Part shown: piece after piece, positions 13,835 through 26,349 of the stretch
Numbering within the stretch: the first letter of the stretch is position 1
Layout of the letters: every line of letters begins with the position of its first letter
Source: Verrucomicrobiales bacterium
Lineage (GTDB): Bacteria > Verrucomicrobiota > Verrucomicrobiia > Verrucomicrobiales > DEV007
NCBI GenBank assembly: GCA_029213195.1
Contig: JARGNI010000046.1
Location: 1-39,598 of the forward strand
Reading direction: 5' to 3'
Length of the DNA stretch: 39,598 nucleotides
Program-made: the position numbers and the translations under genes
Notes under the pieces: model-generated
Told to the model about the DNA's origin: nothing
The model's input: the letters and a program-made list of their open reading frames with translations, nothing else
Database searches by the model: none

Positions 13835-14236
13835 ATGAAAAGTCGAAACGAAATTTCCCCAGATTGCCAGGAAAGCCCTTCCCGGGAGACTGCCTTGCAG
13901 GTGCGTCCCGGTCCGGTCATCAAGCCCCACTACGAATCGCACTACAGCGAGGAGAGCTGGGAAGTCACCGTCGCCCTTCCCGGGGTGGAGAAAGATGACC
14001 TCAAAGTAAACATCGAGAACGAGATTCTCGATCTGCAGGGCGTGCGTCGAAGGGATGTCCCCGAGTCGTTCCGTCCCCTCGCCGAGTATCCCGATGAGCG
14101 TCGCTATCGCCTTCGCCTCGATGTTGGACCGGAGGTCGATCCTGAAAAGATCGAGGCTCATCTCGAAGATGGGATTCTCAGCCTCAGGCTTCCGCTTCGT
14201 GAAGAAGTAAAGCCTCGCTCGATCCCGATTCATTGA
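13835..14236 (+). CDS. Hsp20/alpha-crystallin family small heat shock protein (second copy)
   Basis: The product is 133 aa from ATG 13835, with a C-rich leader and no Shine-Dalgarno. The alpha-crystallin domain starts at ~30 (PHYESHYSEESWEVTVALPGV), continues with LKVNIENEILDLQGVR, and ends with the signature LEDGILSLRLPLREE. The extreme C-terminus carries the I-x-I anchor (SIPIH). Compared with the first copy its N-terminal arm is shorter and lacks aromatic residues. A strong terminator at 14275-14314 closes the two-gene unit. Confidence 0.92.
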   Translation: MKSRNEISPDCQESPSRETALQVRPGPVIKPHYESHYSEESWEVTVALPGVEKDDLKVNIENEILDLQGVRRRDVPESFRPLAEYPDERRYRLRLDVGPEVDPEKIEAHLEDGILSLRLPLREEVKPRSIPIH

Positions 14237-14274
14237 TCGAAATCTGGGCGGAGAATCCAAATTTTCCGGCTCAG

Positions 14275-14314
14275 AACCGGTCGCATGTCTTCCCGGCATG
14301 CGGCCGGTTTTTTT
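14275..14314 (+). terminator. Intrinsic terminator of the Hsp20 pair
   Basis: Arms 14275-14287 (aaccggtcgcatg) and 14297-14309 (catgcggccggtt) form a 13-bp stem with a single G-T wobble and a 9-base loop, followed by a run of T to 14314. It lies 39 bases after the Hsp20 stop and about 70 bases before the next start. Confidence 0.95.
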
Positions 14315-14385
14315 GCAGAAACGGGCCTCGTGCAGGCCGTTTCCCTCTTCTTGCCAGTTACGAAAGATTCTGGTACCGTTTTCCG

Positions 14386-15909
14386 GTGATCTCCTGGCGA
14401 CCCATCCTGGCTGTTTTTGGACTCTGCACTTGCTGGGTTCACGCGCAGGAGTCTGCCCCGGGGGCGAATGGTCCTCGGGCCGGGGCAATGAGCCCGAGTG
14501 GAGGTAGCAGGCCGGGTGCGGCTATCAGACCGGGGGCAAGCGTTGTGAGTCCGACGAAAATCCCGGACGAGTGGGGGACCGACTACCAGATCCAGGTTCA
14601 GGGGGCGACTCCCGGAGTTCGCACCGAATTCCTTACTTTTTGCCAGGACCTTCGAAAACGTTTTCGATGGACCCTGTTTCGCTATCGTCCCGGCGATATC
14701 TCGAGGAGGAATGAGTGGGTCATTCCCTTGCGCGTCGAACTATGGGGCGATCCGAGCGATGTTTACAAAGGAGACTCCGCTCGCATGGGGGTGGAGCTCC
14801 GACCGGGAGAGCGATTCGAGATCTGGGTCGCGGCTCGACTCCACGACGAGTTTTCTTCCGACGCCTTTCGATTGGAATTCGTCCGAGCCCTCGTGACCGA
14901 GAGGATCATCGAACCCTACGTCGTCTCGGCCGGGATTCTCGGAGAGCGGGTCATCCACCCTCCGGACTGGTTGGTTCATGGGTTCGATGAATTGTTGATC
15001 CACCGAAGAGAGGGGCGACCCAGCTCGGCCTATTCCGGAGTTCTGGAAAGCGGTCAGATTCTCTCACCGGCTGAAATTTTTTCGCTCCGCGAACCCGAAG
15101 AACTCGATCCGATCGACTACACCATTTTCCGGATGTCTTCGGCAGCGATGGTGGAAACCCTTCTCGATCAGCCTGACGGAGACATTGCGCTTCGTGAAGT
15201 CCTTGGCGAATTGGCCATGACCGATTCGGTGGTGCCATTGTTGCGAAAGCACTTCCCCGCATTTCGCGAGATGGAGGATGGCATCGAGAAGTGGTGGGTT
15301 CTACAAGTGGCCAGTCTCGGGCAGCAGGGACGCTTTGATTTCATGGGACAGGTCGAGACCGAGGCTCTGCTGAATGAGGCGCTCCTTTTTCGATTTGAAG
15401 AAGGAGAGACGATTCGGAGAAAGGGGGAAAAGACCGGGCTCTTCGAGAAACTGAAGAACCCCAAGGAGGAAATCGTGATCGAAGAAAGCTTTGAGGGCAC
15501 GATCGAGGACTATCGCGAGTTTGTGGGGCGCCCCGGGGTCGAGATCAAGATGAGCGAGGCGTATTTCAAACTGGTCTTCCTGAAACAAGTGGGTTTTCCG
15601 CTCTATCGGCCCCTCCTCGATCGCTATGGTGCCGTTCTCGAGAAGATCGCGAAAAGACAGCTTCGGGGGCTCGATGAGGAGTTGGCCGAGTTGCAGCAGA
15701 TGCGGGACGCGATCGGCGCGACCCTGGTCCGGACCGCAGATACCTTGAATCACTACGAAGCGACCCAGATGCCTCATCGCAGCCGGGCCTTCGAAGAGTA
15801 TCGCCGCATTCGGGATACCCTCGACAAGCGTGAGGAGCCTGTGTCTGACGATCGGATTTCCCAGTTCCTGGATCGCTATGAGCGAGGTGAGCTGACCTTG
15901 AAACCCTGA
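14386..15909 (+). CDS. Secreted protein of unknown function with a degenerate peptidase-like motif
   Basis: The product is 507 aa from GTG 14386. The frame is open to 14233, but a terminator lies inside that stretch, and the GTG starts exactly at a signal peptide (ISWRPILAVFGLCTCWVHAQ, cleavage near residue 20). A Gly/Pro/Ala-rich segment follows (~22-57). The body is globular: RFEIWVAARLHDEF, RALVTERIIEPYVV, and PPDWLVHGFDELLIHRR at ~193-207. The latter sits where MA-clan metallopeptidases have HExxH, but the second His is absent, so it is probably inactive or unrelated. The C-terminal ~130 residues are charged and helical. It precedes the HlyD/M50 pair by 133 bases and could be its partner; that is inference. 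Confidence 0.75.
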   Translation: MISWRPILAVFGLCTCWVHAQESAPGANGPRAGAMSPSGGSRPGAAIRPGASVVSPTKIPDEWGTDYQIQVQGATPGVRTEFLTFCQDLRKRFRWTLFRYRPGDISRRNEWVIPLRVELWGDPSDVYKGDSARMGVELRPGERFEIWVAARLHDEFSSDAFRLEFVRALVTERIIEPYVVSAGILGERVIHPPDWLVHGFDELLIHRREGRPSSAYSGVLESGQILSPAEIFSLREPEELDPIDYTIFRMSSAAMVETLLDQPDGDIALREVLGELAMTDSVVPLLRKHFPAFREMEDGIEKWWVLQVASLGQQGRFDFMGQVETEALLNEALLFRFEEGETIRRKGEKTGLFEKLKNPKEEIVIEESFEGTIEDYREFVGRPGVEIKMSEAYFKLVFLKQVGFPLYRPLLDRYGAVLEKIAKRQLRGLDEELAELQQMRDAIGATLVRTADTLNHYEATQMPHRSRAFEEYRRIRDTLDKREEPVSDDRISQFLDRYERGELTLKP

Positions 15910-16042
15910 GGGGGAAGAATGTGACACGGATCGAGGCTGCGGATTCACGCATTGTCATGCATCCAATAACGCGGTATCTTTCTGACCCGCGCGATCCTTC
16001 CCAGTTCGGATGGGTTGCGGATATGCAGCATAGAGATGGTCG

Positions 16043-17947
16043 ATGGCAAGTAATCTGGTGACTGAATTCAAGGAGTCTGGTGGACTCCCGGTAGGGCCGG
16101 CGCGTCCTCAGGAAGGTGCGCCCACGACGATTCGGGCTCTGCGCCCGCAAGACTCTCTGTCTCCTCTCGCAGAGGTCTTTTCCCGCGCTGCGCACCGGGA
16201 GCAGTTTCTGCAATTGCTCACCGACTACGTTCGGCTTCTTCTCGGCGCGGAAGCGGTCGTGCTCCACGAAAAGCGTGGGGAAGAACTGCGGTTGATCGGG
16301 TTTGCAGGTGTCGGGATGGAAGATCCCAAGGCGCGGCAGGTCTGGATTCCGCAGGACGAGGTTTTGAAAACGGCGTTTGCGGAGAACAAGGCCAGCCAGG
16401 TCCATCTCATCGTGGGAGGACGACAGCATTCCCAGTTGATGGTTCCGTTCCCGGTGCCGGGAGATGTTCCCGTGTGTTTCACCGCCTACCTTCCTCCGGA
16501 GCGAGTCGCATTCTCGGATCCCTGCTTTTCGATGCTGCATCTTACGACGCAGTTCATCGTGCAGCGGGAGTTGATCGCGGAAGCACACGAAAACGAAGAG
16601 GCTTTCGTGCAGGCCACCATGCTGGTGGAGATGTTTTCACGCACCGCGGATGGGGATACTTTCAAGCGCTCCCTTTTCACCCTCGTGACCGAGTTGGAGA
16701 AATTCTTCGGCTGCCAGAGAGTCGCGATCGGAACTGGCTCCAGTCGTTCCTGCAAGGTGCACGCCGTCTCGGGGATGAGCAGCGAAGAGAAACGCACTCT
16801 CGGATACTCTCAGCTGGGCGCGGCGATGCGCGAAGCGATCGCACTGGATGAGATGATGGTCTGGCCGAGCCAGCACGATATGATCCGAGAAGTCGTCGTC
16901 GCTGCGAATCATGATGATCTGCTTCATTCTTTCAAATCCGGGAAGGTTCTGGTCGCGCCGATTCGGCACGAGGCATCGGGCCTGACCGCTGCCATTGCTT
17001 TGCTCTATCCTCCCGCTTCTCCCGATATTTCGAAGAAGACCTACCGATTGCTCAAGGCCTGCCAGCCTCATCTCGGGTCACTCGTTGGCTTCCTGAAGCG
17101 TTCCAAACCGGGGGCTTTCTGGGGAGGTGTCCTGCGCTTCTGGCGTGGAGGGAAGACCAAGCGTACGCTCGCCATTGCCGCTGCAGTTCTCACCCTCGTG
17201 GTGATGTTGTTTCCGATTACCTATCGAGTCGGGGCCGAGTGTGTTTTGCAGCCCGTCATGCGGAGAACGGTGGCCGCTCCCTTCGAAAACCGCCTCTACC
17301 AGACTTTTGCGAAACCGGGAGACGAGGTCCGTGCCGACCAGATTCTCGCGGAGCTCGATGGACGGGAGATCCGGGTCACGCTTGCCGAATCAATCGCGGC
17401 TCGGAGCGCTGCGGTGAAAAAGCGAGACAATGCCATGGTCCTCGAGGATCCGGCGACGCTTCAAATGGCGCAACTCGAAGCCGACCGACTCGCTCTCGAA
17501 GTGGAACGACTCCAGTTCCGCAGCGACAATCTTCTGATTCGTTCTCCGATCGACGGCATCGTCCTGACCGGAAACCTGGAACGTTCCGAAGGGGTTCCTG
17601 TGACGACGGGGCAAAAGCTTTTCGAAGTCGCTCCGCTCGAGACGATGCTGATGGAAATTGCGATTCCGGAGACCGAAGTTCGTCATGTAACTCTGTCCGG
17701 TAAAGTGGAGATGAGGTTGGATTCCGACAGCTCGCGGGTTTGGGAGTCCGACCTGCTCCGGATCTATCCAATCTCCGAAATCCAGAACGGACAGAATGTT
17801 TTCATCGGAGAGGCCATGTTGGAGAATGATAACGATGTGCTCCGTCCCGGTATGAAAGGGAGCGTCCGGATCCATTCCACCCGCAAGTCCATTGGCTGGA
17901 TCCTGTTTCATCGGCTCTGGGAGTATCTGCGACTCAAGCTTTGGTAG
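16043..17947 (+). CDS. GAF-GAF-TM-HlyD membrane fusion protein
   Basis: The product is 634 aa from ATG 16043. Residues ~40-180 and ~195-345 look like two GAF domains (the second contains FFGCQRVAIGTGS and VLVAPIRHE). A single transmembrane segment lies at ~374-393. Then comes an HlyD/biotinyl-lipoyl adaptor: VAAPFENRLYQTFAKPGDEV (~410-429) as the first half-motif, a short coiled coil (~455-495), IRSPIDGIVLTG (~499-510) as the second half, and beta-barrel segments with a C-terminal amphipathic helix. The topology puts GAF sensing in the cytoplasm and the adaptor in the periplasm. The gene ends 2 bases before the M50-HlyD gene, so the two are almost surely co-translated. Which ligand the GAF domains bind is unknown. 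Confidence 0.85.
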   Translation: MASNLVTEFKESGGLPVGPARPQEGAPTTIRALRPQDSLSPLAEVFSRAAHREQFLQLLTDYVRLLLGAEAVVLHEKRGEELRLIGFAGVGMEDPKARQVWIPQDEVLKTAFAENKASQVHLIVGGRQHSQLMVPFPVPGDVPVCFTAYLPPERVAFSDPCFSMLHLTTQFIVQRELIAEAHENEEAFVQATMLVEMFSRTADGDTFKRSLFTLVTELEKFFGCQRVAIGTGSSRSCKVHAVSGMSSEEKRTLGYSQLGAAMREAIALDEMMVWPSQHDMIREVVVAANHDDLLHSFKSGKVLVAPIRHEASGLTAAIALLYPPASPDISKKTYRLLKACQPHLGSLVGFLKRSKPGAFWGGVLRFWRGGKTKRTLAIAAAVLTLVVMLFPITYRVGAECVLQPVMRRTVAAPFENRLYQTFAKPGDEVRADQILAELDGREIRVTLAESIAARSAAVKKRDNAMVLEDPATLQMAQLEADRLALEVERLQFRSDNLLIRSPIDGIVLTGNLERSEGVPVTTGQKLFEVAPLETMLMEIAIPETEVRHVTLSGKVEMRLDSDSSRVWESDLLRIYPISEIQNGQNVFIGEAMLENDNDVLRPGMKGSVRIHSTRKSIGWILFHRLWEYLRLKLW

Positions 17948-17949
17948 CG

Positions 17950-20205
17950 ATGTCAGTCGATCACAAGGTCAGTGAGATAAGCACCTCTCGTCCCCGCTTG
18001 CGACGAGATGTCCGAACCCATTACCAGGAGTATCGGGGGAAGCCGAGTTACATCATCGAGGACACCTCGAAGGGGAAATTTTTTCATGTCGGTTTTCCCG
18101 AGCATCAGTTCATCCAGAGTTTCGACGGTTACACCACGATCTCCGAAGCGCTGGCGCGAAATGCAGCGACCCAGGGAGAAGAAGCCCTGACTGAGGCACA
18201 AGGAGAACAGATGCTCCGCTGGCTCATCGACAGCGATCTCCTCGAGTCGGATACCAGTAGCCAGGGCGAGCGGCGGCGCGAACAGTGGATGCGGCAGAAA
18301 GACAAGCAGCAGAAGAACCCGATCGCCAAGGTCATGTTCTTCAAAGTGCCGCTGGGATGTCCTGACCGTCTCCTCACTCGCCTCGAACCCCTCCTGGGAT
18401 GGATTTTCGCGATCCCGGGACTCCTGCTCTGGCTGGGATTGGTGATCTACACGATCTTCCAGTTGGCACCCGAGTGGGATACGTTCGTCTCTGCATCGGG
18501 CCAGGTCATTGCGCCGGACAACTGGATCCGGGTGATTGCGATCTATGCGGTTCTGAAGGTACTGCATGAATTCGGTCATGGCCTCGCGACCAAGCGATTC
18601 GGCGGACCCGTACCGGAGTGGGGGGTGCAGTTGCTTGCCTTCGTGACGCCGCTTGCTTTCGTCGATGCCTCGGCGAGCTGGAAGCTCTCCTCGAAGTGGA
18701 GGCGGATCACCGTTTCCGCAGCGGGCATGTATGTCGAGATCGCCATCGCGTGCGTCTGTGTTCTGGGATGGCTGAATACCGATCCCGGGGTGCTCAACAC
18801 CTCATTGCACAGCGCAGTGATCGCCGCGACTTTCGTGACTTTGCTTTTCAACGCGAACCCGCTGATGCGGTTCGATGGCTACTATATCCTGCTGGATTTC
18901 CTGGGGATTCCCAACCTGGGAACGAAGGGACAGCAGTTCCTGAAATGGTTTGGAAAGGTGTTCATCCTCGGGATGGAAGACCTCACGATGCCGGCGGCAG
19001 CTCGGCAGCACCCGATCGCCGTGCCTCTGTATGGAATCCTGGCAGCGCTTTGGAAGATCGTGATCTGGATCGGGATCATGGTCATCGTGAGTCTGCTATT
19101 CAAAGGCGCCGGACTGGTTCTCGCCATCGCGTCGGTGCTCGTCATGTTGGGGACGAGCCTCTACAAATTCCTGAAATTCCTCTTCAAAGTGGGAACGGGT
19201 CCAAAGCTGAGCCGCGCGCTCCCCCGGCTCGGGATTCTTATCCTGACTTTGCTTTGCGTGTTCACCTTTGTCCGGATCAATCCGACTGGAAAAGCGGTCG
19301 CGGTTGTCGAGTATTCCAATCGAGAGATCCTCCGGGCGGGTGTAAGGGGACAGGTCGTGGAGGTGAAAGTCCGGGAAGGGCAGGATGTCAAGAAAGGGGA
19401 CTTGCTGGTCGATTTGCGAAACCCCGACGAAGAGATCGAGCACGATAAGATCGAGATCGAGCTGGGAACGGCGCGAATTCGAGCTCGCAGCTATTATCAG
19501 AATGACGATCTTCCGGCCTATCAGGCGGAGCTGGAAACCATCGAGGGACTGGAACAGAAACTCGCCGAGAGTCGGGCTTACCTTGCCGCGCTCCAGGTGA
19601 CCGCACCGGCCGATGGCGTGGTGGTCGGACGACTCTTCGACTCACTTCCCGGACAGTGGGTGGAAGTGGGGGACGAGATCCTGTCCGTGATTCCCGATCA
19701 CGAGAAGGAGCTCCTGATTTCGTTTCGGCAGGATGACATCGACAGTCTCGCGGACCAAGTTGGGCGTCGTATTCGGGTTCTTCTGCGAGGTCGTTCCAAG
19801 CCGATCGAAGGAGAAATCGAGCGGATTGAGAGTCGGGCGACTCGCGCACTTCCGCACGAGGTCATGGCGGCTCCTAACGGGGGACCCCTTGCTTTGCGGG
19901 CAAGCAGTGATCCACTGGCCGAGCGCGAGCAGGAGATTGCCCGAGGTGGCGGGGGCTACGATTCTGATCTGGACTACTTCAGCATTCTCGGTGAGCAAAG
20001 CCAGGCCCGAGAATTGGCGCGAGCCCGATTTGCGGGACGGGCCCGGATCCTGTCGGATTCCGAAGATCCGCTGCTCGAAGGGGAGTGGGGATTCGTTAGA
20101 TTTGCGAACGCAGAGAAGGAGCGACTCGGCAAATGGCTCTTCAACGAGATCTCCGGCTACATCCGAGAGAAGATCGAACAGGCCAAGGCAGCGGCTGCCG
20201 CGTAA
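17950..20205 (+). CDS. PqqD-like/M50 site-2 protease/HlyD fusion membrane protein
   Basis: The product is 751 aa from ATG 17950; the TTG 9 bases earlier is less likely. Residues ~25-100 resemble a PqqD-type winged helix that binds peptides. Multiple transmembrane segments (~150-415) carry the M50 zinc site, HEFGH at 206-210, and the second motif NANPLMRFDGYY at 301-312, whose Asp309 should be the third ligand. After a last membrane segment (~425-443), an HlyD-type adaptor follows: EILRAGVRGQVVEVKVREGQ and LQVTAPADGVVVGRLFDSLP as the two lipoyl half-motifs around a helical hairpin. This matches the YydH-like putative peptide zinc metalloprotease family. All catalytic residues seem intact. It probably works with the GAF-HlyD protein on a peptide substrate. 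Confidence 0.88.
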   Translation: MSVDHKVSEISTSRPRLRRDVRTHYQEYRGKPSYIIEDTSKGKFFHVGFPEHQFIQSFDGYTTISEALARNAATQGEEALTEAQGEQMLRWLIDSDLLESDTSSQGERRREQWMRQKDKQQKNPIAKVMFFKVPLGCPDRLLTRLEPLLGWIFAIPGLLLWLGLVIYTIFQLAPEWDTFVSASGQVIAPDNWIRVIAIYAVLKVLHEFGHGLATKRFGGPVPEWGVQLLAFVTPLAFVDASASWKLSSKWRRITVSAAGMYVEIAIACVCVLGWLNTDPGVLNTSLHSAVIAATFVTLLFNANPLMRFDGYYILLDFLGIPNLGTKGQQFLKWFGKVFILGMEDLTMPAAARQHPIAVPLYGILAALWKIVIWIGIMVIVSLLFKGAGLVLAIASVLVMLGTSLYKFLKFLFKVGTGPKLSRALPRLGILILTLLCVFTFVRINPTGKAVAVVEYSNREILRAGVRGQVVEVKVREGQDVKKGDLLVDLRNPDEEIEHDKIEIELGTARIRARSYYQNDDLPAYQAELETIEGLEQKLAESRAYLAALQVTAPADGVVVGRLFDSLPGQWVEVGDEILSVIPDHEKELLISFRQDDIDSLADQVGRRIRVLLRGRSKPIEGEIERIESRATRALPHEVMAAPNGGPLALRASSDPLAEREQEIARGGGGYDSDLDYFSILGEQSQARELARARFAGRARILSDSEDPLLEGEWGFVRFANAEKERLGKWLFNEISGYIREKIEQAKAAAAA

Positions 20206-25845: not shown

Positions 25846-26349
25846 TCAGTTCGCTGCGGGAGGCTTCGGGGCTGACCCTTTCTTGGGTGTGGATCCCTTG
25901 GGCGCGGAGCCTTTCGGGGCTGCCGCTGCGGCTGCTTTTTCTTTCTCTTCGGCGACGACTTTCTGGTACTCCTCGAGGCTGACTGCGTTGTCCGCGTTGG
26001 TATCGCATCGATTGATCATTGCGGTGACGCTTTTTCCGAATTCGGAGAGAGAGAGCATCTGGTCCGAGTCGGCATCGATGACTTGGAACGCGGGGGTGGC
26101 GAAAAGGTCGTAACTCTCGTTTGCTGGTGCCTTTGGAGCTCCAAATTCAGCTGAGGTGATCACCTTGTCGCGATTCCGATCCATCTTGTCGAAATCGGCT
26201 TTCTTTCCGCGTGCCAGTTCCGCGTAGGTTACGATTCCGTCTCGATTGGCGTCGTAGGTAGTGAAGGAATCTTCAGCGGAAGCATTCTCGGCAAGGTGAG
26301 GAGAGAATGCCAGAAGCAGGGCGGTGAGGTAGAGCGAACGGGTTTTCAT
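25846..26349 (-). CDS. Exported EF-hand calcium-binding protein
   Basis: The product is 167 aa from ATG 26349. A signal peptide covers residues 1-25 (cleavage after ASA). Four EF-hand loops follow: DANRDGIVTYAE (33-44), DRNRDKVITSAE (57-68), DADSDQMLSLSE (92-103) and DTNADNAVSLEE (116-127). The first is canonical; the others lack the central Gly. The C-terminal ~25 residues are a low-complexity PKGS/PKKG repeat that could contact polyanions. Such periplasmic EF-hand proteins are common in Planctomycetota and Verrucomicrobiota; their targets are unknown. It lies downstream of the hybrid kinase gene by ~60 bases in the opposite order of transcription (the kinase gene ends at 26409), so the two may be co-transcribed. 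Confidence 0.9.
   Translation of the reverse strand: MKTRSLYLTALLLAFSPHLAENASAEDSFTTYDANRDGIVTYAELARGKKADFDKMDRNRDKVITSAEFGAPKAPANESYDLFATPAFQVIDADSDQMLSLSEFGKSVTAMINRCDTNADNAVSLEEYQKVVAEEKEKAAAAAAPKGSAPKGSTPKKGSAPKPPAAN

Follow-up and report, generated by a model that had tools for sequence, protein, structure and literature searches.

What might a bacterium move across its envelope with two adjacent membrane genes, one joining a GAF-type region to an HlyD adaptor arm and the other joining a PqqD-like domain, an M50-type protease and a further HlyD arm? The two genes lie on the + strand of contig 100 (C100) of the Verrucomicrobiales genome G000, within a stretch of 39,598 bases that is called the window here, and a first-pass annotation of the letters alone had taken them as one complex that links cytoplasmic sensing to peptide cleavage or export, with none of the usual partner genes next to it. 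Gene anatomy, the modelled fold of the PqqD-like domain as a RiPP recognition element (RRE; RiPP, ribosomally synthesized and post-translationally modified peptide), the intactness of the catalytic residues, partner genes, and co-occurrence and linkage with LEPR-XLL proteins were computed. The pair probably forms the inner-membrane half of an exporter dedicated to LEPR-XLL giant proteins, the genes of which are split over three contigs in this genome.

Association of the M50 gene with LEPR-XLL giants

Homologues of gene 2 (the M50 gene) were found in 36 of 56 related genomes at E 0.001, and the 30 strong ones (E below 1e-50) were counted as M50-positive, leaving out G007, G016, G027, G038, G041 and G053. 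LEPR-XLL matches over the cut-off were present in 26 of the 56 relatives, 25 of which also carried the M50 gene (Fisher P = 6e-10; the exception was G038); G044 was counted as LEPR-positive by the cut-off, with a frame of just 294 codons. The same co-occurrence was found in two wide sets searched with a LEPR threshold of E 0.005, namely 195 genomes from the phylum of G071 (Rhodopirellula locus L129; M50 57, LEPR 24, shared 23; Fisher P = 2e-13) and 244 genomes from the order of G089 (Oceanospirillales locus L165; M50 57, LEPR 26, shared 25; Fisher P = 3e-17), where the M50 counts may be low because four to five candidates were scored per genome, and where the LEPR model matched 0 of 14 control genomes. 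Of the named loci, 61 had no LEPR frame adjoining them; 35 M50 genomes drawn from these were examined singly, and 24 gave LEPR matches over the cut-off, Nitrospirales and Elusimicrobia records included.

The two kinds of gene were also found to be linked. Among the relatives (33 M50 matches and the 60 best LEPR matches), the distance between LEPR motif and M50 gene was 256-392 bp in five cases and at most 5 kb for 11 of the 60 (10 genomes); G004, outside the 60 best, had a LEPR motif 403 bp from its M50 gene. In the gammaproteobacterial order (40 of the M50 matches and all 31 LEPR matches), an M50 gene was found no more than 2 kb from 7 of the 31 LEPR starts and no more than 5 kb from 11 of them (10 genomes), and over the two sets measured 20 genomes had a LEPR gene start at most 5 kb from the M50 gene. 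Chance values for this linkage assume a genome of 4.5 Mb with 1.5 M50 genes, and the P values are rough since the genomes are related. LEPR-like frames were also seen beside the cluster in named loci from records titled Verrucomicrobia and planctomycetes, and the gene order on contig C3 of G025 was TolC-SecA-HlyD-LEPR giant.

A first motif scan gave 14 matches in 3,034 open reading frames (ORFs) against 5.6 in shuffles, and a second scan, relaxed post hoc after the first, gave 23 against 3.3, with 19 of the 23 loci judged genuine by eye (L146, L147, L159 and L160 were dropped). The curated-family searches, not the motif scans, were used as the independent tests of association.

Giant proteins and their leader

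Contig C57 of G000 carries two tandem giant frames (Table 1), which together occupy nearly 106 kb, contain 0 and 5 cysteines, and begin with near-identical leaders ending in RPLFAEALEPRVLFSGTP (L069-L074). Each scored 24.9 bits against NF012209 ('LEPR-XLL'; cut-off 17), with the motif after 48-49 residues, and no evident signal peptide was found in either. Of three giants tested near pairs, two were matched by NF012209 and the third, in L060 (MEQRLLL), was not. Two 5,000-residue pieces of the first G000 giant contained FG-GAP, cadherin-like, bacterial Ig and laminin-G domains and a weak matrixin match, a predicted domain content as expected for surface or adhesion proteins.

From 31 distinct leaders, including fragments cut at contig ends, the consensus [LFV]-x-[LFV]-E-x-L-E-x-R-[VIL]-L-[FLY]-[SD]-[AG]-x-P was obtained, lying 13 to 69 residues in from the predicted start. 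The search pattern itself constrained most positions between 0 and +8; at unrestricted positions, E was found at -2 in 22 of 31 leaders and P at +10 in 20 of 31. The maximum 12-residue hydropathy of the leaders was up to 1.56, compared with 1.63-2.70 for ten TolC proteins (starts predicted); by this measure, no hydrophobic core of the Sec-signal type is apparent in the leaders. Across seven giants, of which G000 with four close relatives supplied six and G001 the seventh, the longest invariant run was LFAEALEPRVLFS, and pairwise identity was 69% up to LEPR+10, 41% over the next 80 columns and 52% beyond. The alternating hydrophobic residues ahead of LExR would suit beta-strand pairing with an RRE.

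Two further loci bear on the giants. In L040 (10813-12812), genes for a HemN-like radical S-adenosylmethionine (SAM) protein and a 2-oxoglutarate (2OG)-Fe(II) oxygenase, with relatives in L044, are located between the M50 gene and the LEPR-XLL giant, and their products possibly modify the giant. In L100 (1382-5647), from a genome that gave no LEPR match, the start of a 1,421-residue ORF near the M50 gene contains ...IEALESRISPA, which may be a variant leader.

Partner genes and the published locus

In 72 of 80 named loci a GAF-HlyD homologue accompanies the M50 gene within the stretch analysed, and the pair is far beyond chance because homologous pairs recur across records titled as several phyla. 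The first-pass annotation had treated the two genes as one system and had named the absence of a conserved association as its own refuter; the search found the association. According to neighbourhood maps, many pairs are flanked by a short SecA, a TolC, a third HlyD protein and very long genes, and representative partners contained SecA_DEAD with PP_bind and a P-loop, OEP, and HlyD domains, respectively.

In G000 the corresponding TolC and short SecA genes, both supported by hidden Markov models, and a third HlyD gene with weak support (38 bits to HlyD-containing models) were located on contig C46. The short SecA (15183-17129) is 60% identical to the SecA of L041 (SecA_DEAD, PP_bind and P-loop domains), and is secondary to a long SecA frame of 1,059 codons on C57. 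The partners do not adjoin the pair in the window, which explains why the first-pass annotation missed the system: SecA, TolC and HlyD are on C46 and the giants on C57. A short precursor need not be assumed; the LEPR-XLL giants, whose genes lie away from the pair, are the likely cargo.

The TolC, short SecA and HlyD trio was also found in G005, G006, G008, G024, G025 and G026, and in two stretches taken from G029 a short SecA was found with no TolC match. The short SecA was present in 26 of 56 relatives, all 26 of them M50-positive (partial genes were counted; one fragment, in G031, and housekeeping SecA were left out). The system genes stand together in one locus in L037, L091, L096, L139 and L141, and L037 has the whole set of HlyD, SecA, TolC, GAF-HlyD, M50 and giant. 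A scan of the loci for Walker A plus LSGG motifs, which can miss some ABC proteins, picked out an ABC-like ORF in 5 of the 80 named loci and 3 of the 39 relative loci, with none in the window; by these motifs, an ABC motor is not a regular neighbour of the M50/GAF-HlyD genes.

A SecA-DEAD/HlyD/M50/GAF locus was published in 2015 (Kamneva, Poudel and Ward; PMC4452313) in passages that call its role "completely unknown", suggest energy from SecA and the M50 protein as a possible pore, and list Planctomycetes, Verrucomicrobia, Proteobacteria and a few others as hosts; Methylobacterium extorquens AM1 is one carrier given in that paper. M50-HlyD and GAF-HlyD are encoded together in the window, as in that locus, and the window pair is a split half of it. 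A term search did not find 'LEPR' in the main text of PMC4452313.

Two observations on the distribution of the pair may be added. In L063, L066 and L067 (one genus) an M50-HlyD gene was found without a short SecA and with no GAF-HlyD match in the stretch, perhaps reflecting a different use, and in L093, from a record titled Akkermansia muciniphila metagenome-assembled genome, the M50 protein is 42% identical to that of gene 2, although the label may be wrong.

Domain analysis of the two proteins

The junction of the genes reads TAG-CG-ATG, which gives the annotated 2-base gap if gene 2 begins at ATG 17950; an alternative start at TTG 17941 would overlap gene 1. Two GAF domains had been claimed for the gene 1 protein, a claim supported in part, because one GAF region was matched barely above the Pfam cut-off and no Pfam match to a second was obtained at E 0.1; among 30 gene 1 homologues the GAF-type models matched were GAF (17), GAF_2 (8) and GAF_3 (6). 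The single membrane span of gene 1 was judged by eye. HlyD-type arms were confirmed in both proteins, by HlyD_D23 and also HlyD_3 in gene 1 and by HlyD_3 (2.6e-13) in gene 2, whose arm aligned with MacA, MexA and HlyD structures (Z about 12.7-14.8). When gene 2 was compared with solved structures by sequence, matches were limited to the HlyD/biotinyl region.

The N-domain of gene 2 is nearly invisible to sequence models (Pfam PqqD match in 2 of 27 family members), so fold searches were needed. In a full-length AlphaFold model (pLDDT 77.5), residues 13-102 aligned with the RRE of TbiB1 with leader (5v1v; Z 10.3, root-mean-square deviation (rmsd) 3.0, 85 residues of an 88-residue chain). With the N-domain predicted alone from 77 sequences (pLDDT 89.5), the top five Foldseek matches were lasso-peptide RREs with leader (5v1v, 6jx3 and 5v1u; E 0.0068-0.042, probability 1.00), and a second aligner gave 6jx3 (Z 9.7), 5v1v (Z 9.3) and PqqD 5sxy (Z 8.5). 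The predicted models have the winged-helix fold of three strands and three helices that is characteristic of RRE/PqqD domains. The PqqD-like domain of the first-pass annotation thus holds as a modelled fold, and hardly by sequence. As modelled, the N-domain shares the fold of RiPP-leader-binding domains; it appears built to read a leader and is a candidate reader of that of the LEPR-XLL giants.

Both motifs of the M50 zinc site reported earlier, HEFGH and NPLMRFDGYY, were present. The Peptidase_M50 score was below the Pfam cut-off (21.5 versus 27.2 bits); H206, E207, H210 and D309 were unchanged in all 27 aligned homologues, the most distant of which share 25% identity, and the model has a site-2 protease (S2P)-like fold with HExxH and Asp and an RseP-like core (Z 10.8). 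Invariant catalytic residues together with this core favour, as far as alignment and model can indicate, an active protease over a mere pore.

Positions of all these features are given in Table 1.

Table 1. Features of the gene pair in the window (C100) and of the proposed partner and cargo genes on other contigs of G000
Feature	Contig	Positions	Strand	Remarks
Gene 1, GAF-HlyD protein	C100	16043..17947	+	634 residues: GAF-type region, membrane anchor (by eye), HlyD adaptor arm
GAF domain, gene 1 residues 211-320	C100	16673..17002	+	Pfam PF01590 7.4e-05, 23.7 bits, cut-off 22.4
HlyD_D23 adaptor region, gene 1 residues 410-604	C100	17270..17854	+	Pfam PF16576 2.4e-16
Gene 2, RRE(PqqD-like)-M50 protease-HlyD protein	C100	17950..20205	+	751 residues from ATG (754 from TTG 17941)
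PqqD/RRE-fold N-domain, residues 13-102 of 751-residue form	C100	17986..18255	+	Structure models; candidate LEPR-XLL leader reader
M50/S2P-type protease core, residues 188-320	C100	18511..18909	+	RseP orthologue 7w6y, Z 10.8, rmsd 3.0, 130 residues
HEFGH zinc motif, residues 206-210	C100	18565..18579	+	H206, E207, H210 invariant 27/27
NPLMRFDGYY with presumed third zinc ligand Asp, residues 303-312	C100	18856..18885	+	N303, P304, L305, F308, D309, G310, Y311 invariant 27/27
HlyD adaptor arm, gene 2 residues 447-636	C100	19288..19857	+	Pfam HlyD_D23 447-580, HlyD_3 550-636
TolC	C46	12477-15110		877 residues
Short SecA	C46	15180-17135		651 residues
Third HlyD	C46	17132-17977		281 residues
First giant frame	C57	111561-167183		18,540 codons
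Second giant frame	C57	167706-218108		16,800 codons

Other features of the window

A secreted protein upstream of the pair (14233-15909, given as 14386 in the first-pass annotation) had been offered as its substrate or partner. A homologue was found in 51 of 56 relatives irrespective of the M50 gene (28 of 30 with it and 23 of 26 without it); the protein therefore behaves as a core gene, and this candidate was dropped. It gave no Pfam or NCBIfam match. Between 13333 and 14236, also upstream, an HSP20-like gene (47.9 bits, under the cut-off) is followed in tandem by a gene related to it, with relatives near the pair in L032-L035. A small protein encoded at 25846-26349 has weak similarity to lanmodulin/EF-hand proteins (35 bits, cut-off 135). 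An Rfam scan of the window gave 0 matches.

Proposed export route and alternative explanations

Leader binding, cleavage, route, export, motor role and regulation are the parts of the proposal that we infer. At its N-terminus each giant would carry a leader of non-classical type, closing with a block that resembles LFAEALEPRVLFS[A/G]xP; this leader the RRE-fold domain of the M50 protein may capture at the membrane as an added beta-strand, by analogy with known RREs. The short SecA-like ATPase would push or feed the giant chain, and the inner membrane would be connected to a dedicated TolC channel by three HlyD arms, one each on the M50 protein, the GAF protein and the third HlyD protein. The S2P-type active site may cut in or near the leader and so remove it, and the GAF region may gate or regulate the assembly.

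Several results weigh against this proposal. The pair, the SecA/TolC/HlyD genes and the giants of G000 are on separate contigs (C100, C46 and C57), and G040, G044, G045 and G047 have the M50 protein without a short SecA. The Fisher values overstate significance because the genomes are related. LEPR matches were missing from M50-positive genomes in 34 of 57 and 32 of 57 cases in the wide sets and in 5 of 30 among the relatives, and G038, G177 and G449 were LEPR-positive without an M50 gene. Among the M50 genomes examined singly, 11 of 35 gave no LEPR match over the cut-off and seven gave none at E 1 (Verrucomicrobiaceae (L100), Saprospiraceae, Beggiatoa, Desulfobulbaceae, Spirochaetales, Desulfocapsa and Desulfuromonas records). 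In these M50-only and LEPR-only genomes the leader may be a variant, the cargo a different one, the genome incomplete or the motif match due to chance. The LEPR model, of 24 positions, is weak and was over the cut-off in 1 of 14 control genomes at a loose setting, and the hydropathy ranges of leaders and TolC proteins nearly touch. For the N-domain no Foldseek match was obtained at E 0.001 (best E 0.0068), and in the second aligner domains of the carbamoyltransferase GdmN (about Z 10) and Rv2067c (9.8) ranked level with RREs.

The giants could be exported while the M50 protein serves mainly as a membrane pore or scaffold and its RRE-fold domain has another role. A pore was suggested in the relevant passage of PMC4452313, and a fold similar to that of the N-domain occurs in other proteins such as GdmN and Rv2067c; nevertheless, this arrangement is judged unlikely, since all 27 of the divergent homologues aligned keep HExxH and Asp, residues that a mere pore would not need. 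A maturation and export system of the RiPP type, as the first-pass annotation envisaged, is improbable; its substrate would be a short modified peptide, and its association with the giants only indirect. The daptide_HExxH model does match gene 2 over residues 19-414 (155.5 bits), radical SAM and 2OG oxygenase genes stand between pair and giant in L040 with relatives in L044, and 6 of 39 relative loci and 4 of 80 named loci have a gene for a small DUF3467-like protein close to GAF-HlyD; yet the daptide and YydH/LiaK scores are far under their curated cut-offs, and the small protein is absent from the remaining loci and from the window (the maps covered ORFs of more than 70 codons), whereas LEPR giants recur. 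Least probable of all is that the pair is an efflux or stress device that co-occurs with the giants through a shared accessory gene pool. No LEPR gene was detected in many M50-positive genomes, and HSP20-like genes lie near the pair in the window and in L032-L035; the spacing of 256-392 bp between LEPR motif and M50 gene in five relatives and of 1.3-1.4 kb in seven gammaproteobacteria would be left unexplained, and the short SecA and TolC are part of the same sets, so that this explanation is already weakened.

The DUF3467-like gene was observed near the GAF-HlyD gene in L036, L040, L044-L047, L105, L133, L141 and L154, the L040 copy being just under the Pfam cut-off.

Comparison with known systems

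The locus of PMC4452313 has, in the passages describing it, the same components as the exporter proposed here (short SecA_DEAD, M50-HlyD, GAF-HlyD, HlyD and sometimes OEP/TolC), typically in a single locus, whereas in G000 they are split over C100 and C46. Those passages name neither a substrate nor a LEPR motif; added here are the RRE fold of the N-domain, the invariance of the catalytic residues and the giant cargo. The proposed cargo, proteins with the LEPR-XLL domain (NF012209, LEPR-8K), bears a domain label to which the family records attach no exporter, and the LEPR-XLL passage of PMC10868602 gives no exporter.

The daptide intramembrane metalloprotease (NF041824), whose model spans the N-domain too, and YydH/LiaK (NF058609) are M50-type proteins with HExxH, like the gene 2 product. 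Membership was rejected for both families (155.5 bits versus a curated cut-off of 300, and 43.8 versus 225, respectively). The role in peptide cleavage or export proposed by the first-pass annotation fits in its general sense, and not as membership of either family. The gene 2 protein differs from these proteases by its extra HlyD arm and by a giant protein as proposed substrate instead of a short peptide.

The HlyD adaptor and TolC channel are common to type I secretion (HlyB-HlyD-TolC), and a one-step conduit is likewise proposed here. The type I secretion signal is C-terminal, in contrast to the N-terminal leader proposed here, and it is a SecA-type ATPase that recurs with the present genes, near which ABC-like motifs were seen in few loci. 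The modelled N-domain has its fold in common with known RREs (PqqD 5sxy, TbiB1 5v1v and lasso B1 6jx3), from which it differs in being fused to a protease-adaptor and in having a giant-protein leader as its proposed ligand. There is about an even chance that these features together define a distinct secretion pathway, with a SecA-type motor, an HlyD/TolC conduit, and selection by a RiPP-like LEPR-XLL leader through an RRE fused to a leader-removing site-2 protease.

Significance

The apparatus and the LEPR-XLL domain name were known already; the cargo and the mode of recognition are proposed here, and a search of the open-access literature by titles, abstracts and term counts found no publication joining LEPR-XLL proteins to the SecA-DEAD/M50 locus. 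In several bacterial phyla there are genes for proteins that range from thousands of residues to almost twenty thousand, and the exit route of such chains is not stated in the passages cited above. With the present proposal, an orphan export locus gains a proposed cargo, and the LEPR-XLL motif gains a likely function as an export leader. If this is true, leader recognition by RREs would not be confined to small natural products and would also serve in secreting proteins that are among the largest in bacteria.

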